Below are positions 40,333-50,475 of a stretch of DNA of 64,000 nucleotides, one piece after another. The stretch is from NCBI GenBank assembly GCA_034189135.1, contig JAXHVO010000062.1:1-64000 (forward strand), given 5' to 3'. Position numbers and translations under genes: made by a program. Below the pieces are notes generated by a model that saw nothing but the letters and a program-made list of their open reading frames with translations, did not search any database and had not been told where the DNA came from. Origin of the DNA: Thermodesulfobacteriota bacterium (lineage in GTDB: Bacteria > Desulfobacterota > Desulfobacteria > Desulfobacterales > JAUWMJ01). Every line of letters starts with the position of its first letter. The stretch's first letter is position 1.

Positions 40333-42198
40333 ATGAATTCAACCCGACCATTAAAACGCGTGGTTCTCTTATCCACACCATGGTCTTTTTTCAGCAGACC
40401 ATCCATTCAGCTGGGAACCCTCAAGTCCTATTTAAGGGTACAGTTTCCCAAACTCAAAGTAATCACCCATCACTTTTATTTACAGGTTGCGGAACGCATA
40501 GGATATAAACTGTATCACGCCATATCTGAAAGGACCTGGCTGGCCGAAACCGTTTATGCCGCTTTATTATACCCAGAACGATTCGAATCGATTGAAAAGC
40601 TTTTTATCAAAGAGGCCAAAGGCAAACCTTTATTACATGATGTTGATTTTAAGACTTTAACGAAGCGGGTGGCCAAAGTTACAGATGACTTTATTGATCA
40701 GGAAGACTGGGATAGGTTTGGGCTTGCAGGTTTTTCGGTTTGTCTATGCCAGCTTACGTCTGCTATTTATTTTATACGCCGCATAAAGAAAAGGTCTTCC
40801 AGTCTTCCAGTGGTGGTCGGCGGATCGATGTTCAGCGGAGTTTCAGCTAAAAATTTTGTAAAATTGTTTCCTGAAATAGATTTTATGGTTATTGGCGAAG
40901 GTGAACTTCCTTTGAGCCGGCTGGTGGGAAATTTAAAAAATTGGCAGAAGACAGGAGATTTCCCGCCCATACCCGGTACCATATCGGCCAAAGAACCGGA
41001 CATGATAGAATCGCTCGGTTTCAGCCAGATAGAAGATTTGGCAAATCTCCCGGTTCCCGATTATGATGATTACTTTAACCTGCTCAAATCGTTCAAGCCG
41101 GACAAAACATTTTTTCCCACCCTATCAGCCGAGATTTCGCGCGGGTGCTGGTGGAAGGGGAAATCTGTCCACCGAGGAAGAAATTCGGGTTGTGCTTTTT
41201 GCAATCTCAACCTCCAATGGAAAGGATACCGGTCCAAAAATCCGGATCAGGTGGTTGCTGAGATTGATTACCTGACTGCAAAATATCAGAATTTATCAGT
41301 GGCATTTATGGATAACCTGGTTCCGGTGAACTCATCCTCAGAGATTTTTAACAAACTTGGCAAATTAAAAAAGGATTTTCATCTATTTTGTGAAATTCGA
41401 GCAACCACTCCCAGGCGTGTGCTGGAAAGCATGCAAAGGGCAGGGGTGCGGGAAGTTCAGGTGGGGATTGAGGCGCTTAGTACCCGGTTGCTTAAAAAAA
41501 TAAATAAAGGAACTTCTGCCATACAGAACCTGGAGATCATGAAACACTGTGAAGAGCTCGGGATAGCCAATCATTCAAACCTGATACTGCATTTTCCGGG
41601 CAGTGACAGGGAGGATGTAAAAGAGACCCTGAAAAATCTGGAATTTGCCATCTATTTTCGCCCCATGAGGTTTGTTCACTTCTGGCTCGGGCTTAAAAGT
41701 CCGGTATGGCAAAATCCCAAAGATTTCGCCATAAAAGCGGTTTTCAATCATCCCAACTATACCACACTTTTTCCGCCTGATATATGCCGGCAGATGGTTT
41801 TTATGGTGCAGGCTTATCGAGGTGATCTTGGATATCAGAGAAGGCTATGGCAGCCGGTAAAACAGAGAATCCGAAAATGGAAAAAAGAGTACACTGAGAT
41901 TCAAAAAGGCCCGGTGAAATCCCCCATCTTAAGCTACCGGGACGGAAAGGATTTTTTGATCATTCGTCAAAAACGTGTTTCAGCCGATCCGTTCACTCAC
42001 CGCCTTGAAGGTCTGTCCAGAGATATTTATCTGTTTTGTGGGCATCATCGCTCCTTTAAAAGGATCTTACAACAATTTTCCCAATTATCCGAAGACAGAC
42101 TTATCCCTTTCCTGAAAATGATGACAGACAAAAAATTGATGTTTGAGGAAAATGGAAAATACCTTAGTTTGGCTATTTCAGCATATAAAAAAAGTTAA
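40333..42198 (+). CDS. Radical SAM protein of the RiPP-maturation C-methyltransferase type
   Basis: This 621-residue protein has a B12-binding-like N-terminal domain (residues 10-240, with VVVGGSMFSGVSAKNFVKLF and FMVIGEGE), the hinge NLPVPDYDDYF, and a radical SAM core. The [4Fe-4S] cysteines are in RGCWW (about 273) and GCAFCNLN (about 287-294). The CWW plus CxFC pattern is typical of the rSAM-ocin family that modifies ribosomal peptides. Between the first and second Cys there are fourteen residues, more than is usual in the members I recall. A winged-helix-like C-terminal part follows residue 520. No precursor peptide is certain, and a candidate lies just downstream. Confidence 0.8.
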   Translation: MNSTRPLKRVVLLSTPWSFFSRPSIQLGTLKSYLRVQFPKLKVITHHFYLQVAERIGYKLYHAISERTWLAETVYAALLYPERFESIEKLFIKEAKGKPLLHDVDFKTLTKRVAKVTDDFIDQEDWDRFGLAGFSVCLCQLTSAIYFIRRIKKRSSSLPVVVGGSMFSGVSAKNFVKLFPEIDFMVIGEGELPLSRLVGNLKNWQKTGDFPPIPGTISAKEPDMIESLGFSQIEDLANLPVPDYDDYFNLLKSFKPDKTFFPTLSAEISRGCWWKGKSVHRGRNSGCAFCNLNLQWKGYRSKNPDQVVAEIDYLTAKYQNLSVAFMDNLVPVNSSSEIFNKLGKLKKDFHLFCEIRATTPRRVLESMQRAGVREVQVGIEALSTRLLKKINKGTSAIQNLEIMKHCEELGIANHSNLILHFPGSDREDVKETLKNLEFAIYFRPMRFVHFWLGLKSPVWQNPKDFAIKAVFNHPNYTTLFPPDICRQMVFMVQAYRGDLGYQRRLWQPVKQRIRKWKKEYTEIQKGPVKSPILSYRDGKDFLIIRQKRVSADPFTHRLEGLSRDIYLFCGHHRSFKRILQQFSQLSEDRLIPFLKMMTDKKLMFEENGKYLSLAISAYKKS

Positions 42199-42371: not shown

Positions 42372-43214
42372 ATGAATGTACGTCTGACCACTCTATGCGA
42401 TAACCTGGTTGGTTCTATTGGCTTTATTGGTGAATGGGGCTTTAGTATCCTGGTGGAGTGTGGAGAGGAAAAAATCCTGTTGGATACCGGCATGACGGGT
42501 TCCGTGGTGTACAATGCGGTTAATAACGGGATCGACCTGAACCAAATTACCCGTATCGTCATTAGTCACGGGCATTTAGATCATACCGGCGGGTTGAGGA
42601 ATCTGCTTCAGGTTATGAGGAAAAATGTGGAAATTATCATTCATCCCGAAGCCTGGGCGAAAAAATATGCAACTCGACCCGAAACCACCGGCAGTCAGGT
42701 ACATTTTATCGGCATTCCCTTTGTGAAAGCTGAATTGGAAAACCTGGGCGCTTCATTTACTCTGAGCCGGGAACCTGTATGGATCAATGACCACATCGTA
42801 ACAACCGGTGAAGTGCCCATGAAGACCTCATTTGAATCCATTGATAATAATTTGTTTGTTAAGACTGAGGAAAAACTTAAACAGGACAAAGTCCTGGACG
42901 ATCAAGCATTAATTATTAACACACTTAAAGGATTGATCGTAGTATTGGGGTGTGGCCATCATGGCATGATTAACACACTCATGCACGCCCAAGAAATTAC
43001 CGGAGTAAAGAAAATTCTTGCGGTCCTGGGTGGAACACATCTCTTTCGATCCGATTCATACCAGATAAACCAAAGCATAGCAAAACTTCAAGAATTCAAA
43101 GTTGAGAAAATCGGTGTGTCTCATTGCACTGGAATGCCTGCGGCAATGGCTTTGATGAATCATTTCGGAAATCGTTTCTTTTTTAATCATGTCGGAAAAG
43201 TAACTGAGTTTTGA
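42372..43214 (+). CDS. MBL-fold metallo-hydrolase (RFAP-synthase-like subgroup)
   Basis: The 280-residue protein has the metal-binding motif VISHGHLDHTGGLRNLL near residue 62 and CGHHGMINTLMHAQEI near 195. The late VLGGTHLFRSD and IGVSHCTGMPAAM blocks are typical of the subgroup that includes archaeal dihydropterin-related phosphate synthases. The exact substrate is unknown. CGGAGG precedes the ATG by eleven bases. It follows the radical SAM gene and may be co-transcribed with it. A similar, Tat-exported protein is encoded at 46525. Confidence 0.85.
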   Translation: MNVRLTTLCDNLVGSIGFIGEWGFSILVECGEEKILLDTGMTGSVVYNAVNNGIDLNQITRIVISHGHLDHTGGLRNLLQVMRKNVEIIIHPEAWAKKYATRPETTGSQVHFIGIPFVKAELENLGASFTLSREPVWINDHIVTTGEVPMKTSFESIDNNLFVKTEEKLKQDKVLDDQALIINTLKGLIVVLGCGHHGMINTLMHAQEITGVKKILAVLGGTHLFRSDSYQINQSIAKLQEFKVEKIGVSHCTGMPAAMALMNHFGNRFFFNHVGKVTEF

Positions 43215-43521: not shown

Positions 43522-44850
43522 ATGGAAGAAATACACGAATCGATACCGAAGGGAATTATTACCGAAGAGGAATTGTTTAACTTTGTGGAGGATTTTCCTG
43601 CTCTTTTGTGGCGTATCGATATCATTAAAAACAAGATAGAGTATTTAAACGGCTATAAGATTAAGGGGTTGGGGTCCAAATCGGGTCTCATTCTCCAGAA
43701 TATTGATTTCAGCAAAAAAATTATACTTAAAGAAGATTTTCATCTTCTTGAAGGATTTATGCGAGCAGTGAGAAATGGAGAGACGGCTGTAACCATATTT
43801 CGAATTAAAAATCAGGATGACGCCATTACTTGGATCAAGGTGACCGGGACAGTCAATAAAAAAAATCCACGTTTTTATCTGGGGTTTATGCTGGACGTTT
43901 CCAATACCGTCGATATCGTTCAGGATACCTTAAAAAAAGAAGCAGATGCAGAAGCCATGATAGAGCTGGTAAATAATCCGGTCATTCTTATTGATCCCTA
44001 TGATAAAAAGATATTGGCGCACAACATAGCTGCAAGAGATCTTTTTGGCTATCGGGCCGGTGAATTTTTAAAACTCAAATTTTCCGATCTTTATCATCAC
44101 AGTATTGAATCGCGCATCAACAAGATTTATGAAGAAGTCATTTTTGATAAAAAATGGGAAGGCAAATTAACCCTTAAGCGCAAGAACAAATCCCCTTTCA
44201 TTGGTGAGGTCGTTATGCGCAGCCTGTTTTTCCGGGGTTTTCGTGTATTTCGAGTGTCCGTAGACAACGTAAGCGTTGATGATGAGGCGAATAGAATGTT
44301 TAGTTTTACGTTGGGAAATGAGGTTAACTCCTCAGATACGGCTAAGCAAAGTTATATTAATCAACTGATGGGAAAAATTAGAGATGAAAGCGATATGTCC
44401 GTTATTCTGCAAATTATGTTAGATAACCAGTATGGACATATGAATTTTGATTCTATTATATATTCAGATATTTATGCAAGGAAAAACAGGGTGGTTGTTT
44501 ATACCGCAGGCAAGGCTTTGTCTCCCATGAAGCAGGGGGAGGTCTTCCCCTATGAAGGGACCATTGCAGAGAATATCGATCGCTATAAACTGGACTATTT
44601 AATCGTGGAAGATACCTTTTCCAGCATCAAGGCCATTGACTGGGCCCTATTCATTCCCCATGGCCTGCGGTCCTATTTTGCCAAGCCTTTTTTTGATCGC
44701 AAGGTCATGCGAACGGTCCTTATACTTTGTTCGGAGCAACGTCATATGTTTTTCGATCAAAATGTGGCCGATTATGCGTTGTTGTATAAACCGTTTCTAC
44801 TCGGATTGACCAATTGGCGAAAAGCAAAAAAAAACAAGAAATCTTCATAA
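43522..44850 (+). CDS. PAS-domain sensor protein without a recognised output domain
   Basis: This 442-residue protein has an N-terminal PAS-like domain (about 25-125, FVEDFPALLWRIDIIKNKIE), a second PAS domain at about 145-260 (VNNPVILIDPYDKKILAHN, LFGYRAGEF), and a C-terminal alpha/beta part from about 290 that may be GAF-like. No histidine kinase, GGDEF or HTH motif is visible. It probably senses a ligand or redox state and acts through a partner. The next gene is a FadR-type regulator 363 bases away. Confidence 0.72.
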   Translation: MEEIHESIPKGIITEEELFNFVEDFPALLWRIDIIKNKIEYLNGYKIKGLGSKSGLILQNIDFSKKIILKEDFHLLEGFMRAVRNGETAVTIFRIKNQDDAITWIKVTGTVNKKNPRFYLGFMLDVSNTVDIVQDTLKKEADAEAMIELVNNPVILIDPYDKKILAHNIAARDLFGYRAGEFLKLKFSDLYHHSIESRINKIYEEVIFDKKWEGKLTLKRKNKSPFIGEVVMRSLFFRGFRVFRVSVDNVSVDDEANRMFSFTLGNEVNSSDTAKQSYINQLMGKIRDESDMSVILQIMLDNQYGHMNFDSIIYSDIYARKNRVVVYTAGKALSPMKQGEVFPYEGTIAENIDRYKLDYLIVEDTFSSIKAIDWALFIPHGLRSYFAKPFFDRKVMRTVLILCSEQRHMFFDQNVADYALLYKPFLLGLTNWRKAKKNKKSS

Positions 44851-45160: not shown

Positions 45161-45180
45161 TTGGTACTACCAAACCAGAA
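45161..45180 (+). promoter_or_regulatory. Operator-like palindrome at the transcription start
   Basis: TTGGTACTACCAA is a perfect 13-bp palindrome and is followed by ACCAGAA. It fits the TGGT-N3-ACCA type of operator bound by FCD-domain GntR regulators. Its place just after the -10 element suggests that the regulator represses its own gene. Confidence 0.68.
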
Positions 45181-45213: not shown

Positions 45214-45966
45214 ATGACCAAGGAACTTGAAACTATAAGAGGAATCATTGCTATTATCAACAGTGATGATTTCAAAAACGGCTTTCCTCTTCCCTCTGAG
45301 CGGAAACTGTCCAGCAAATTTAACGTCAGTCGCAATACTGTGAGAAACGCCCTGCGCAAACTCGAAGCACGGGGTATGGTGGATATTCGTAAAGGAAGCG
45401 GTTGCTTCGTACTGTGCAAAAACGGTTATTGTCAGGACTGGCTGGAAGACAAAGATGCGGATTCATCTGAGGAACTACAAAATTTGCTTGAAACCCGATA
45501 TTTATTCGAACCTTTGACATTCTTTCTGTCAGCAAAAAGAATTACAAAAAAAAATATAGAAGAACTTGAAAAATGTCTGATCCGTTTGAGCCGGGCGATT
45601 ATCGGGAGAGAAAAGGAAAACATCGCAGATGTAGACGCGGAATTTCGCAGAATTATTTTTTGCAGCAGTAAAAACAGGTTTTTAATTTTCACCATGAACC
45701 AGCTCAACAGCAATAATCACCTGTTTTTCAATAACTTTGATCAGTTAAGCGAATTTGAAAGAGATTCAATTTTTGCCGACTATGTTGATATTTTAAATGG
45801 ATTAAAAAAAGAAGATGCGTTCTTTGTCAAAGAGAAGGTTGAAAAAAATATTCTTCGAATGTGTGAGCTGCTTGTTAAGTATGAAGATATTAAAATGCCG
45901 GAACTGATTGCCGATGCCATCAAAATGAATGAAAGCAACAGTGGACAGATCCTACTTTCTGGATAG
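45214..45966 (+). CDS. GntR-family transcriptional regulator, FadR (FCD) type
   Basis: The 250-residue protein has an N-terminal winged helix-turn-helix (FPLPSERKLSSKFNVSRNTV, then RKLEARGMVDIRKGSGCFV) and an all-helical C-terminal FCD-like domain (LLETRYLFEPLTFFLSAKRI; DAEFRRIIFCSSKN). FCD-type regulators sense organic acids or fatty-acid derivatives. Two TTGGTA sites lie upstream of the gene, so self-repression is likely. The regulator precedes the cytochrome/MBL/membrane-protein genes, which are the probable targets, although no matching site was seen just before 46140. Confidence 0.85.
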   Translation: MTKELETIRGIIAIINSDDFKNGFPLPSERKLSSKFNVSRNTVRNALRKLEARGMVDIRKGSGCFVLCKNGYCQDWLEDKDADSSEELQNLLETRYLFEPLTFFLSAKRITKKNIEELEKCLIRLSRAIIGREKENIADVDAEFRRIIFCSSKNRFLIFTMNQLNSNNHLFFNNFDQLSEFERDSIFADYVDILNGLKKEDAFFVKEKVEKNILRMCELLVKYEDIKMPELIADAIKMNESNSGQILLSG

Positions 45967-46139: not shown

Positions 46140-46481
46140 ATGAAGCGAAATATTTATTGGAGACTCATTCTTATCGGAGTTGTTTGCAGTGCCTTTTTAC
46201 TGGGGGGTATATTGCTGCAGGGGTCGGACACAATCGCTGGGGAAAAAAAATCTGTCAAAAAGGAAAACCAGTTAAAAGCGTTCAAGGTTTTCAAGAAAAA
46301 GTGTCTCGGTTGTCATAATTCGGTTGCTGATCCGGAAAAACCGGGCCGGACCCGGGATGACTGGCACATGATCGTCAATATTATGCATGATTACGGGATG
46401 GATTTATCCGAGGCACAAAGTGAGCTGATCATCGATCTTCTCTATGACCTTCGCCGGGGCATTGAAAGAGAAGCCGGTTAA
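46140..46481 (+). CDS. Small monohaem c-type cytochrome
   Basis: The 113-residue protein has an N-terminal signal or anchor helix (residues 10-28) and one CxxCH haem motif (CLGCH) near residue 57. TRDDWHMIVNIMHDYGMDLS follows, a pattern with possible axial Met residues found in small quinoprotein-type cytochromes. It would act in the periplasm. AAGAAAGGGGG precedes the ATG. A Tat-exported MBL-fold protein is encoded 43 bases downstream. Confidence 0.8.
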   Translation: MKRNIYWRLILIGVVCSAFLLGGILLQGSDTIAGEKKSVKKENQLKAFKVFKKKCLGCHNSVADPEKPGRTRDDWHMIVNIMHDYGMDLSEAQSELIIDLLYDLRRGIEREAG

Positions 46482-46524
46482 ACGGTTTATTTGATAAACT
46501 TTAATTGGGAAAGGAGATTTTGCT

Positions 46525-47622
46525 ATGAAAAGAAGAACCTTTTTAAAATCAATGGCTGCAACGGGGGTTGCCGCATCAATGACAGGAACAGGTGTTTTGA
46601 CCCGTGAGGCCGAAGCACGCAAGAAGATCGATATCGGAGAAATTAAGGAACTTAAGATCGATGTGCTTACCGAAACGAGCTGGTTTGACAACGATCAGTT
46701 TAAAAAAGACATCATGGATTACGGCGGGGCAATGACCAACCAGTACACCATTCCCTGGAAGTGGGACAATGCCGGAGGGTATTCTGTTTTAATGACGGTG
46801 ACCACACTTGAAGGAAAAAAAAGAAAATTTTTACTGGATACAGGCTGGAACAACGAATGGATGGACTATATCAATGAAAAGAACAACATCCCTCCCATGC
46901 TGAAAAGCGGTGAGATTGAATTCATGGTACTGTCCCACTGGCATCTGGATCACTACTGGGGGATTGAATCGACGTTGAAACATAAACCGGACATTCCTTT
47001 TTATGTTCCCAAGACCTATTATCCTGAAGATATGGCACTTTTAAAAGATAAGGCCCATCATAAAGCCAAGGATAAGGTGACCGGAAAAATGATGCATATT
47101 TGCAAGAATGATGTTCCCCATACCGGCAAACTGATCCTGTGCGATCCAAAAGGAGAAAAAGGGGAAGGTATTTACCGGCTGATGGATGGTGTGGCCATAA
47201 GGAATTTTGATGTGCCCATCCTGCTCAGGGTCAGGGGTGAAAATGTGCTTTATTTTAACGTCAAGGACAAAGGAATTGTCACGGTCACCGGCTGCTGCCA
47301 TCCCGGCATTCTGTCCCTGTTTTCCTACGCCAGAAAGAATTTTAAGGGATATAAACCTTATGGTTGCTATGGTGGCTTGCATATCAGCCTGTTTGAAACC
47401 TGGGATCCAAAGTTTGACGATATCATTAAGGGTGTTAAAGCATTCAAGATTAAAAAGCTGGGATGCAACCACTGTACCGGGTGGATCTGGGCTGAAAAAG
47501 CCGCTCAGGCAGGTGTGCCGGTGGTTAAAGGAACCAATAAGTATAAAACCTATAAAAAGTATTCCACGGTTGCAAAGGCGAGCAATGTCTTTTTAACCAA
47601 TGGAGATACGGTTACATTTTAA
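46525..47622 (+). CDS. Tat-exported MBL-fold metallo-hydrolase
   Basis: The 365-residue protein begins MKRRTFLKSMAATGVAASM, a twin-arginine signal, so it is folded before export. The metal-binding motif VLSHWHLDHYWGIE lies near residue 139, and a later ITVTGCCHPGILSLFSYA and LGCNHCTGWIWAEKAA hold further His and Cys residues. It resembles the cytoplasmic RFAP-like protein at 42372 in layout, but is exported. With the monohaem cytochrome in front it may carry out a redox-linked hydrolase reaction in the periplasm. The substrate is unknown. AAAGGAG lies before the ATG at 46525. Confidence 0.85.
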   Translation: MKRRTFLKSMAATGVAASMTGTGVLTREAEARKKIDIGEIKELKIDVLTETSWFDNDQFKKDIMDYGGAMTNQYTIPWKWDNAGGYSVLMTVTTLEGKKRKFLLDTGWNNEWMDYINEKNNIPPMLKSGEIEFMVLSHWHLDHYWGIESTLKHKPDIPFYVPKTYYPEDMALLKDKAHHKAKDKVTGKMMHICKNDVPHTGKLILCDPKGEKGEGIYRLMDGVAIRNFDVPILLRVRGENVLYFNVKDKGIVTVTGCCHPGILSLFSYARKNFKGYKPYGCYGGLHISLFETWDPKFDDIIKGVKAFKIKKLGCNHCTGWIWAEKAAQAGVPVVKGTNKYKTYKKYSTVAKASNVFLTNGDTVTF

Positions 47623-47624
47623 GA

Positions 47625-47650
47625 ATCACTTCAAAAAAGGTTGAAGTGAT
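47625..47650. terminator. Hairpin after the Tat-MBL gene
   Basis: Arms ATCACTTCAA and TTGAAGTGAT pair over ten bases around a six-base loop. There is no T-run on either strand, so it may stabilise the message rather than terminate it. Confidence 0.45.
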
Positions 47651-47765
47651 CTTAAGGGGCCAAGGAGTCATGGATTCAAGGGAGATCGAGTGAAAATGAT
47701 CGAAAAAGAAATGCATATAGACAATTTCCTGATCCTTGGAACCATTTTTTATAAAGACACACTTT

Positions 47766-47863
47766 GAGGATATCAAGGGTTAAGGGCAGGGAAAGCGTAG
47801 GTGCTTATGCAAACTGTATCTAGTCATTTGCATTCACCTGACCCCTTAATCCCTTGAATCCTC
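47766..47863. repeat. Imperfect inverted repeat in the 377-base gap
   Basis: GAGGATATCAAGGGTTAAGG at 47766 is matched in reverse by CCTTAATCCCTTGAATCCTC ending at 47863. A third short GGATTCAAGG at 47672 belongs to the same theme. The gap 47651-47980 holds no gene. GGAGG before ATG 48000 serves the next gene. Confidence 0.5.
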
Positions 47864-47999
47864 GAATCCTCTTTTCCAATTAAATTGGAGAAGAACCCAT
47901 TTTAATAATTGAAAGGGGAGGCAAAGGAATATAAGGGAAAAGAATACGCGGCAAATGATTTCTTTTCCCTTTTTTTAATAAACTGGAGGGTTCGATATT

Positions 48000-49223
48000 A
48001 TGGATGCAAGCACAGACACGGAAAAAAATTTTAATTATTTCTTTGGGCTGTTAAACCTAGCGGCAGTATTCTGTATTGTCTGGTTCCTGTGGTATATTTT
48101 TATGAATCCGAACACGGTGATGAAACTTTACACTCCGATGTATGGGTTTTCCCTGGTGGTGGTTTTTCTGTCCGGTATTATATTGATGACAAAGGTCATC
48201 GACTATTCTGTTTTTAAGGATCATCTTCCTGCACAGGATAACCTTATCTTAAGGGGAATTATATTGACCGTTGTTTCTTTTATTTTAATGCTTTTCATAA
48301 ATTACTTTGTTTTCTGGGGGTTTTTAGGGAAATTCGGCATCGCCTATTTCAGTCCTGATTCCATCGTGGCGGGAGGAGGTATAGGGGCCGAACCTTTTTC
48401 AGCACGGGAAAACGCCTCTACCGCAGTCGTCTATTTCTTTACCGCTTTTTTATGGATCGCTTTGTTCTGGAGTGTGGGTTTTGGACGCTGGCCCTGGCAA
48501 AAAACAAGTTCAGGGGTGGTGGCATGGTCCAGGGTTTTCGGCATATCCTTTCTGGTCAGCATTATTTATGTGGTATTGTTCCACCCTCATATCTGTTATC
48601 TTTTCTATCCTGCGCAATCCAAAGCAGGAGTAGATCCGTGGTGGGCAGAGCTTGCCGGAACCGGAAGCGCCTTTTTCGGCCTGGGACTGGTGCTGTGTAT
48701 CCTGTTCTGGATTATTGTCTCTGATCTGCATTGGGAAGGGTATCCCTGGAAGTTCCTGGAAAAAGATGGCGAGGGAACATTCGGAAAAGGATTTGTTACT
48801 TTTGTGACCACATTTCTTTTTGGAATGATCCTGCTTTTTATACTGATAAAAGTCATGAATGTCGTTTGGGATGAGGCTTTTGTGGGTGGTCAGTATACGG
48901 ATGGTCCGGATTTTCGTTATATTCATGCAGGAGAAATCGCCGGCTTTTTTATTTTGGCTGTATTTATCCTGAAAAATTATTTTAACAATTTTCCCAATGC
49001 CGGCCCGCTCTGGCTAAAGGCTATTATTCGAACCATACTCGCTTTGGTGCTGGGATTGCTGATTTACTGGTTTTACTACTCTCCATTGGCAACCTTTTTT
49101 CTGGCAAAAGTGGAGGGTTTTGCCCAACCCGGTGACACCCCGCTGGTGTGGGGACTCTTATTCCTGAGCATCATCCTGGTACAGTTCGAATTTTTCGAAG
49201 GATGGCCATTAAAAAAAAGGTAA
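48000..49223 (+). CDS. Multi-pass membrane protein of unknown function
   Basis: This 407-residue protein has about ten to eleven hydrophobic helices and is unusually rich in Trp, Phe and Tyr. Distinct stretches are FSPDSIVAGGGIGAEPFSAR and VLFHPHICYLFYPAQSKAGV, and the C-terminus ends FFEGWPLKKR. I recognise no transporter signature. Conserved His (FHPH, DLHWEG) in helices or loops could bind haem or a metal. Its position after a cytochrome and an exported hydrolase suggests a membrane partner for that pair. The next gene begins 15 bases after the stop. Confidence 0.75.
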   Translation: MDASTDTEKNFNYFFGLLNLAAVFCIVWFLWYIFMNPNTVMKLYTPMYGFSLVVVFLSGIILMTKVIDYSVFKDHLPAQDNLILRGIILTVVSFILMLFINYFVFWGFLGKFGIAYFSPDSIVAGGGIGAEPFSARENASTAVVYFFTAFLWIALFWSVGFGRWPWQKTSSGVVAWSRVFGISFLVSIIYVVLFHPHICYLFYPAQSKAGVDPWWAELAGTGSAFFGLGLVLCILFWIIVSDLHWEGYPWKFLEKDGEGTFGKGFVTFVTTFLFGMILLFILIKVMNVVWDEAFVGGQYTDGPDFRYIHAGEIAGFFILAVFILKNYFNNFPNAGPLWLKAIIRTILALVLGLLIYWFYYSPLATFFLAKVEGFAQPGDTPLVWGLLFLSIILVQFEFFEGWPLKKR

Positions 49224-49238
49224 GAGCTAAAGAAAATA

Positions 49239-49511
49239 ATGGTGGATAAAAGCAAGAGAGATTTCTGCACCCGGTATTTTCTTCGGCAAATCGGTGAAAT
49301 TATCGAAGGATTTGAAGCCGGGGTTGAGGAAGCTAAGCAAAAGGAGGACTTTGACAATTTTTTTAAGTCGTATGAATCGAGCTACGCCTTGACCCTGGCT
49401 TATCCGGATGAAATTTTGCTGGAAACAGCCAAGAGCTATGGAATTGAAACCGAAGGACGGGGGAAAAATGAGATCGTAAAGGAACTGCTTAAAAAAAAGG
49501 GGGGATATTAA
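49239..49511 (+). CDS. Small helical protein of unknown function
   Basis: The 90-residue product is mostly charged and helical (RQIGEIIEGFEAGVEEAKQ; EIVKELLKKKGGY), with no membrane segment. It follows the 407-residue membrane protein by 15 bases. The 3' end crosses a run of eight A and six G at 49491-49504. The next frame opens across this run, so a fused product by slippage or an indel is possible. Confidence 0.6.
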   Translation: MVDKSKRDFCTRYFLRQIGEIIEGFEAGVEEAKQKEDFDNFFKSYESSYALTLAYPDEILLETAKSYGIETEGRGKNEIVKELLKKKGGY

Positions 49512-49551
49512 AATAGATTTTGAGAGCTTTTTTCGCAATAAAATAGACAAT

Positions 49552-50475
49552 ATGCTGGTCACCACTTCCTGGGTTGAAAAAGTCAAAGACTTGATCGGTC
49601 TTGAAGCGGTGAGCCAGGTCTGGGGAGATAAACCGGCATGGTATTTCTGGATTTCTCAAGCACCCGGCGTCTATTATATTCAACTGGAGGAAGGGTTTGA
49701 TGATGATTGGGAAAGCGATGATCTGGCAACAGGAGTTTTTTCAATCAAATGCTATCCTTACACCCATGAAAAAGTTTTTCAGTCATTTTCTTTTGAAGAG
49801 CAGTCTTTTATCCAAAGTGATTTTTTTGATCATACCCACACACCTCTGTTTGAATACAAAGAAAACATACCCAAAACACTTTTTAATGTGGCCACTTTAG
49901 AATTGACGATGGATTCTAAAGACAATCTGGCACTCTTTACATTTGAAGGCCTTGATTCCATGCGTATCTGTTATAAGCAGGAAACGCTACAATCATATCC
50001 TGAAATCAAAAAGGAGAAGAAATATAAAGCAGGTGAGAAAGGCAGAGATGTTCCTGGATATGAACTCGGCTATCCGCTTTTTGACCGGCTTCTTTCTCTG
50101 TATTCTTTTTACAGTAAAATAAAGCCGGAAAGAGTGCTTCTAACACGCAGCCCGGGATTTGAATATATATATGGTTCAAACCATACATTTCAATGTGTGG
50201 ATACGGACGATATCAGCATTAATATGCTAAATGTTCTATTTGCTGACAATAACGGCAAAAAGACAGTCAAGGGTGATAAAATAATTGAAAAACGACTCAA
50301 AGAGGGGCATCATAAAGCTGTTTTTGATCAAAAATTTCAATGCGGGCATCTTCACCATAATCAGAACCCTTTTGTGTTGACCCCTCCTTTAAATGATCAG
50401 TGGTGGGCTCTGGCTGATTCCGATTATAAATCGGAACTGGCATCCAGCTGTGGTTGTACACATGACCACCATTAA
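49552..50475 (+). CDS. Unknown protein with a His/Cys-rich C-terminus
   Basis: This 307-residue protein has no family that I recognise. The N-terminal half is rich in Trp and aromatic residues. The C-terminus holds CGHLHHNQNP and SSCGCTHDHH, which could bind a metal. There is no signal peptide. ATG 49552 has no ribosome binding site, while the same frame is open upstream to 49480, across the A8G6 run of the preceding gene. The start may therefore be wrong, or the protein may be an extension of the 49239 product. It ends 8 bases from the convergent acyl-CoA dehydrogenase gene. Confidence 0.7.
   Translation: MLVTTSWVEKVKDLIGLEAVSQVWGDKPAWYFWISQAPGVYYIQLEEGFDDDWESDDLATGVFSIKCYPYTHEKVFQSFSFEEQSFIQSDFFDHTHTPLFEYKENIPKTLFNVATLELTMDSKDNLALFTFEGLDSMRICYKQETLQSYPEIKKEKKYKAGEKGRDVPGYELGYPLFDRLLSLYSFYSKIKPERVLLTRSPGFEYIYGSNHTFQCVDTDDISINMLNVLFADNNGKKTVKGDKIIEKRLKEGHHKAVFDQKFQCGHLHHNQNPFVLTPPLNDQWWALADSDYKSELASSCGCTHDHH

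Follow-up and report, generated by a model that had tools for sequence, protein, structure and literature searches.

A conserved gene module pairs a predicted Tat-exported metallo-beta-lactamase-fold hydrolase with two undescribed protein families in a Thermodesulfobacteriota genome

Organization of the five-gene row

We analyzed a 64 kb stretch (hereafter the window: positions 1 to 64,000 of contig JAXHVO010000062.1, assembly GCA_034189135.1) of the 4.6 Mb draft genome of a Thermodesulfobacteriota bacterium, and within it a row of five genes at 46140-50475. The five genes form a real conserved module, the type I variant of a cell-envelope module that recurs in related genomes. An open reading frame (ORF) check found them all intact and co-directed on the forward strand, in the order and place first listed for them. 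The first gene (46140..46481) encodes an exported 113-residue monohaem c-type cytochrome, with one CLGCH motif and a hydrophobic, signal-like N-terminal start; its match to Pfam Cytochrome_CBB3 (E 0.0097) is below the cut-off. It is followed by the gene of a 365-residue metallo-beta-lactamase-fold protein (MBL; 46525..47622) that begins MKRRTFLK and is a predicted substrate of twin-arginine translocation (Tat). The third gene (48000..49223) encodes TM, a 407-residue inner-membrane protein of about ten helices for which we found no Pfam or NCBIfam match at E<=1 and no meaningful PDB match. The fourth (49239..49511) encodes sm90, a 90-residue protein with a twin-arginine-like start and no meaningful Pfam or NCBIfam match, and the fifth (49552..50475) encodes HC307, a presumably cytosolic protein of 307 residues composed of a domain that we call HC and the C-terminal Cys/His tail CGCTHDHH (50449..50472), whose C(x)C plus His pattern suggests metal binding. 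Upstream on the same strand lies the gene of a GntR/FCD regulator (45214..45966), assigned to the FadR subfamily because its GntR (9.5e-17) and FCD (2.5e-10) domains both exceed the Pfam cut-offs. An earlier, sequence-only reading had described the row as a periplasmic monohaem cytochrome, an exported metallo-hydrolase, a membrane protein without known signature, a small protein and a His/Cys-tailed protein under a probable FadR-type regulator; the ORF and domain searches agree with this description, the exported metallo-hydrolase remaining a prediction from the Lactamase_B match and the signal motif.

Conservation of the module among genomes

Whole-genome profile searches were made in 389 genomes of the class and in a separate, partly overlapping draw of 395 genomes of the phylum. 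The TM profile gave 90 matches in 76 of the 389 class genomes, including those of a branch that lacks MBL, and found TM in 34 of the genomes in the phylum draw, while the MBL profile (threshold E<=1e-60) gave 65 matches in 59 class genomes. Every one of the 55 TM matches in the class genomes that scored at least 440 bits, a line chosen after the scores were seen, had a co-directed MBL match no more than 500 bp away, compared with 2 of 35 weaker TM matches. Conversely, a TM gene accompanied 57 of the 65 MBL matches, and the remaining eight consist of one contig fragment and seven MBLs from genomes having no TM match. Because all 55 high-scoring TM genes adjoin an MBL gene, we conclude that the linkage goes beyond chance. 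The HC profile gave 56 matches in 53 class genomes, of which 51 lie close to a linked TM. Of the 57 linked TMs, 51 are accompanied by an HC match; among the remaining six, which include G366, two (L100 and L102) carry a fused HC recognized by another profile. The Tat-MBL and TM genes are thus nearly inseparable in the searched genomes, with HC accompanying them, and the earlier suggestion of a coherent set is upheld by this repeated co-occurrence. No TM relatives were found in viral contigs.

Among the closest TM relatives (18 loci, L010-L017 and L026-L035, some genomes being represented twice), MBL and sm90 were present in all 18, HC in 17 and the cytochrome in 12; the sole HC miss is at a contig edge, and some of the cytochrome misses likewise fall at contig ends. 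When all MBL-linked loci were counted after removal of 10 duplicates, with presence thresholds that we set ourselves, 43 remained. HC or an HC fusion was present in 42 of them, the exception being a short contig, and sm90 in 32. A sigma54-type activator was found in 17 loci, a CobW domain in 16, the cytochrome and a NifX-like gene in 14 each, and GntR and PAS genes in 13 each. The cytochrome is accordingly among the least constant parts of the module; 13 of its 14 homologues retain CxxCH. The sm90 homologues begin with [RK]RxF in 27/27 cases, yet sm90 has no hydrophobic region; it may mimic a Tat signal or act as a chaperone of a Tat substrate.

No paper on this gene combination was found in open-licence full texts, in keeping with the sequence-only reading, which had called the set undescribed; in the 2009 COG0523 survey (PMC2770081), the words 'lactamase', 'Desulfo', 'fusion' and 'fused' do not occur. 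The parts of the module are of known kinds, and the TM and HC families and the arrangement of the genes are new to us.

Three locus types

The linked loci fall into three types, for which we coined the labels I, II and III. Type I, that of the window, reads cytochrome-MBL-TM-sm90-HC; type II reads TM-MBL-HC-CobW, with HC fused to a metallochaperone GTPase of the COG0523/CobW family; and type III reads MBL-TM-HC-sm90, in some cases with a short-chain dehydrogenase/reductase (SDR; 3 of 43 loci at the chosen threshold). Two types coexist in several genomes, for example I and III in G357 and G218, and II and III in G070. In a quick maximum-likelihood tree built from 61 TM proteins, the 43 MBL-linked members part from the 18 MBL-less ones with full support, the tree builder warning that long branches meet. 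The MBL-less clade is another undescribed membrane family; an acyl-CoA ligase gene flanks 9 of the 19 loci of MBL-less TM homologues (L063-L072, L115 and L123-L130).

These neighbors, together with the domain composition of the window regulator, bear on an alternative in which the module serves organic-acid uptake or catabolism, TM acting as a carboxylate permease, MBL as an esterase or lactonase, the GntR/FCD protein as an acid sensor and HC in a role other than metal handling. FCD regulators usually sense organic acids, and this alternative is also favored by the acyl-CoA ligases, by the SDR genes of type III and by genes near L073, L075 and L091 that we named TRAP-like (tripartite ATP-independent periplasmic transporter) by reading. 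However, SDR and TRAP genes occur in few loci, and the fusion of HC to CobW and the Cys/His tail described below are left unexplained, so that we consider this alternative improbable.

The exported metallo-beta-lactamase-fold protein

The window MBL matches Pfam Lactamase_B with 27.4 bits (3.9e-06; cut-off 22.7). Residues H138, H140, D142 and H143 of the HxHxDH motif, together with H259, H286 and H316, are invariant in 20/20 aligned sequences, as are R3, R4 and Cys 257, 258, 314 and 317. By profile and ligand motif MBL is a member of the metallo-beta-lactamase superfamily and a predicted hydrolase, and by its signal motif it is a predicted Tat substrate: RRxF is present in 43/43 homologues, and the match of the window protein to Pfam TAT_signal (0.0011) is below the cut-off. 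Its nearest solved relatives by sequence, 2p4z and 7dck of metallo-beta-lactamase superfamily II, align with it in the HxHxDH, GCCHPG, GGLH and NHCTG blocks. In contrast to them, the module MBL has a Tat signal, extra segments, of which the insert is longer still in type II, and ties to TM and HC.

Distant MBL homologues (L132-L137) occur without HC or TM, indicating that HC is not a general requirement of the MBL fold. Two of these (L135:6732-7667 and L136:459-1394) lack a Tat signal and have an RsbRD_N gene as well as a dsrMKJOP-like cluster as neighbors; the Dsr naming is our own label, and Pfam identifies NarI-like, Fe-S/CCG, Fe-S and NrfD genes in the L135 cluster.

The membrane protein TM

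The predicted model of TM has a pLDDT (predicted local distance difference test) of 56.7, and its best Foldseek E value was 0.2; we set the fold search aside since the model is too poor. Helix positions in the model and the charge bias both indicate a ten-helix protein whose two termini are predicted to be cytosolic: lysine and arginine amount to 0.150 per residue in the cytosolic loops and 0.070 in the periplasmic loops (53 rows, duplicate loci included). Eighteen positions are occupied by a polar residue or Trp conserved in at least 95% of the linked rows. In the modeled topology, 16 of these lie in periplasmic loops or outer helix halves, among them Y44, T45, Y116, E137, H195, Q206, T221, S223, R306, H309 and Y359, and the remaining two are Trp residues at the cytosolic edge. 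In the MBL-less clade, E137, H195, Q206 and R306 are replaced and H309 is kept, and many other His and Glu residues are conserved on both sides of the membrane. Because the four residues are replaced in that clade, the site appears to be specific to the MBL-linked TMs, which, on this provisional topology, bear it facing outward, toward the compartment expected to hold the exported MBL and the cytochrome.

The position of H195 and H309, both invariant in the linked TMs and placed by the model in the outer leaflet, is consistent with a redox module in which TM would bind haem or quinone and exchange electrons with the cytochrome, MBL being an oxidoreductase-like non-haem iron enzyme or a structural subunit. 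The cytochrome genes in 14 of the 43 loci, the many additional His residues conserved in the MBL-less TM clade and the MBL homologues adjoining dsrMKJOP-like genes in L135 and L136 point the same way. Yet no cytochrome was found in type II or III loci or in part of the type I loci, the core has no Fe-S, flavin or molybdenum subunit, and the MBL beside the dsr genes is only distantly related and lacks a Tat signal. We judge a redox module distinctly unlikely. Where the sequence-only reading had proposed redox or hydrolysis at the membrane, hydrolysis is retained as plausible, given the invariant MBL ligands and the polar residues predicted on the periplasmic side of TM, whereas the redox half is viewed as less likely, as the cytochrome is present in a minority of loci and the evidence that follows favors metal handling.

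The HC family, its CobW fusion and the TonB genes

No meaningful Pfam, NCBIfam or PDB match was found for HC307. All 26 stand-alone HC proteins carry C(x)C and then His at the C-terminus. In type II loci HC is fused to PF02492 and PF07683, as identified by a Pfam scan of two proteins, and this GTPase region aligns across 16 sequences. An hhalign comparison of HC with HC-CobW (16 against 16 sequences) gave a probability of 99.6% and an E value of 9.3e-24, in which HC positions 1-288 align to the stretch of the fusion directly before the GTPase. Since the alignment stops just before both, the Cys/His tail of HC occupies the place of the GTPase in the fusion. Type II relatives carry a complete COG0523-type G3E GTPase, CobW plus CobW_C, with a GCVCC motif invariant in 16/16 fusions. 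In contrast, HC307 of the window contains neither PF02492 nor PF07683 by Pfam, and the HC part that precedes CobW matches no Pfam family; because the G3E GTPase and CobW_C were found only in the type II homologues, we do not file HC307 as a COG0523 protein. The predicted HC model, built from 10 sequences, has a mean pLDDT of 83.8; its best Foldseek match to solved structures (E 0.083) is below significance, and VIA-align gave a best Z of 5.1, with Bet v 1-like rows mostly at 3.5 to 4.7, within background; these results do not by themselves make the HC fold a new one. TGA codons inside HC matches were considered as selenocysteine and rejected, as they are ordinary stops directly after the Cys/His tail.

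Genes for ExbB, ExbD and TonB lie on the same strand downstream of HC-CobW, directly or one gene on, in 6 of the 16 CobW-type loci, compared with none of the 45 loci that lack CobW, that of the window among them. The profiles were built from four of the six positive loci, which match by construction, and the search with these profiles then recovered L119 and L120. Pfam confirmed ExbB, ExbD and TonB in L101, where a chemotaxis-receptor gene separates HC-CobW from the TonB-system genes, and ExbB and TonB in L118. The COG0523 fusion, the Cys/His tails and the TonB/ExbBD genes point to metal handling, and HC is probably a metal-handling protein. According to PMC7689651, COG0523 proteins aid metallocentre assembly and their CxCC motif is required for metal handling. 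A COG0523 GTPase and TonB energy transduction are common to some type II loci and to zinc or metal uptake clusters such as those of Zur regulons (PMC4176598, PMC2770081). The module differs from such clusters in that no Zur/Fur regulator, ATP-binding cassette transporter or TonB receptor was recognized in its loci, and in that it combines an exported MBL with the ten-helix TM, whose family is undescribed.

The main rival to uptake is maturation, in which HC, with or without CobW, would be a cytosolic chaperone inserting metal into MBL or TM before Tat export, and the MBL-TM pair would be an ordinary envelope hydrolase with an organic substrate. Tat exports folded proteins, so that metal loading of MBL would be cytosolic. 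HC has no signal and stands in the same gene row, the MBL metal ligands are invariant, and the Tat-like start of sm90 fits as well, as does the role in metallocentre assembly that PMC7689651 gives to COG0523 proteins. On the other hand, ExbB-ExbD-TonB in type II loci would be superfluous for maturation, and the distant MBLs do without HC or TM. Maturation in place of uptake is, in our assessment, unlikely.

Proposed function

We infer that the module is a metal-chelate capture and processing system, the exported metallo-hydrolase and TM acting on a metal-bound or metal-requiring substrate. MBL would fold and acquire its metal in the cytosol, cross the inner membrane through Tat, and act at the periplasmic face of TM, where the conserved E, H, Q, R, H and Y residues of TM would form an outward-facing site. 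There it would hydrolyze a metal-bound or bulky ligand, which in some type II lineages may cross the outer membrane on TonB-ExbBD energy; in type I the cytochrome would supply or remove electrons. TM would pass metal or product inward, and HC would receive the metal, using the Cys/His tail (types I and III) or GTP-driven CobW (type II), while sm90 would probably be a cytosolic partner of the Tat substrate. The whole chain, from the envelope hydrolase and TM acting on a metal-bound substrate to HC taking the metal inside, we regard as a serious possibility that falls short of probable. A farther-reaching proposal, which we think rather unlikely in its entirety, is that of an envelope metal-capture machine of an unrecognized class: TM would found a new family of permeases or metal sites with an outward-facing polar site, a dedicated Tat-exported metallo-hydrolase would free metal from its ligand, and HC would be a new cytosolic acceptor. 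One lineage would have gained the COG0523 GTPase in place of the Cys/His tail, and part of that lineage TonB power, and the several versions in a genome may serve different metals or ligands.

Several observations weigh against metal capture. No metal-responsive regulator was recognized in the loci, which have PAS and GntR proteins or a sigma54-type activator instead, and no riboswitch emerged from Rfam, with no match in the window region at E<=1 and none at gathering scores in eight loci. The genome itself has no recognizable COG0523 protein, its best PF02492 match being HypB-like, and a CobW_C match is absent in 10 of 16 type I genomes, some of them incomplete, suggesting that the COG0523 GTPase is dispensable. 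No TonB-dependent receptor was recognized by eye in six loci, and no profile search aimed at one was made. More distant TM homologues adjoin acyl-CoA ligases and have neither MBL nor HC, and the TM topology is provisional, given the pLDDT of its model. We also set aside the NifX-like gene as metal evidence, because pairs of NifX-like and sigma54-activator genes recur elsewhere in the same genome and the gene is therefore not independent. Two such pairs lie at L146:1489-1836 and L147:1498-1878, the latter adjoining an MRP-like ATPase and a further NifX-like gene.

Two widespread families of sulfate reducers and their relatives thus have no meaningful match in Pfam or NCBIfam. Through its fusion to CobW, the orphan domain HC is linked to metal delivery, with the adjacent exported hydrolase or TM as its predicted client; this makes the client choice of COG0523 GTPases testable, together with the acquisition or insertion of metals by anaerobes in metal-sulfide-rich settings.

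Regulatory genes and surroundings

Regulation involves PAS and GntR proteins in the window and a sigma54-type activator in other relatives. The window PAS-domain protein (442 aa; 43522..44850, forward strand; Pfam PAS_9/PAS_3 above cut-off) is counted in a regulatory pair because PAS and GntR co-occur in 13/13 GntR-bearing linked loci; PAS was never found without GntR, and GntR and the sigma54-type activator never share one of the 43 loci. A candidate operator-like palindrome of FadR type, TGGTACTACCA (45162..45172), is located 42 to 52 bp upstream of the GntR start. It is the single occurrence in the window, with 0.78 expected by chance, of TGGTNNNACCA, which we take to be the FadR-type operator consensus; 10 of the 13 loci have the motif in the 250 bp that precede GntR. 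A search for sigma54 -24/-12 sites gave matches at scattered positions in 6 of the 17 activator-bearing loci and none in the other 11, and these sites were discarded.

The gap between MBL and TM is 377 bp in the window, compared with ~105 bp in close relatives, its length including an interspersed repeat of the genome itself (47625..47910). This repeat, which lies outside the module, has 15 further matching places in the genome (73-91% identity), is palindromic, and appears to be MITE-like (miniature inverted-repeat transposable element), as judged by its inverted arms (47663-47683/47850-47870). A conserved attenuator hairpin in the gap was rejected, as z<-3 was reached in just 7 of 26 gaps and the window gap gave a non-significant z of -0.6; a weak terminator-like hairpin ending in a T run is present on the forward strand at 47928..47976 (arms 47928-47944/47960-47976).

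Downstream, an acyl-CoA dehydrogenase gene on the opposite strand faces the five-gene row. Just upstream of the PAS gene lies a second MBL gene (42372-43214) that encodes no signal and shares ~23% identity with the exported MBL over part of its length, and it is preceded by a radical SAM/B12-binding-like gene at 40333-42198.

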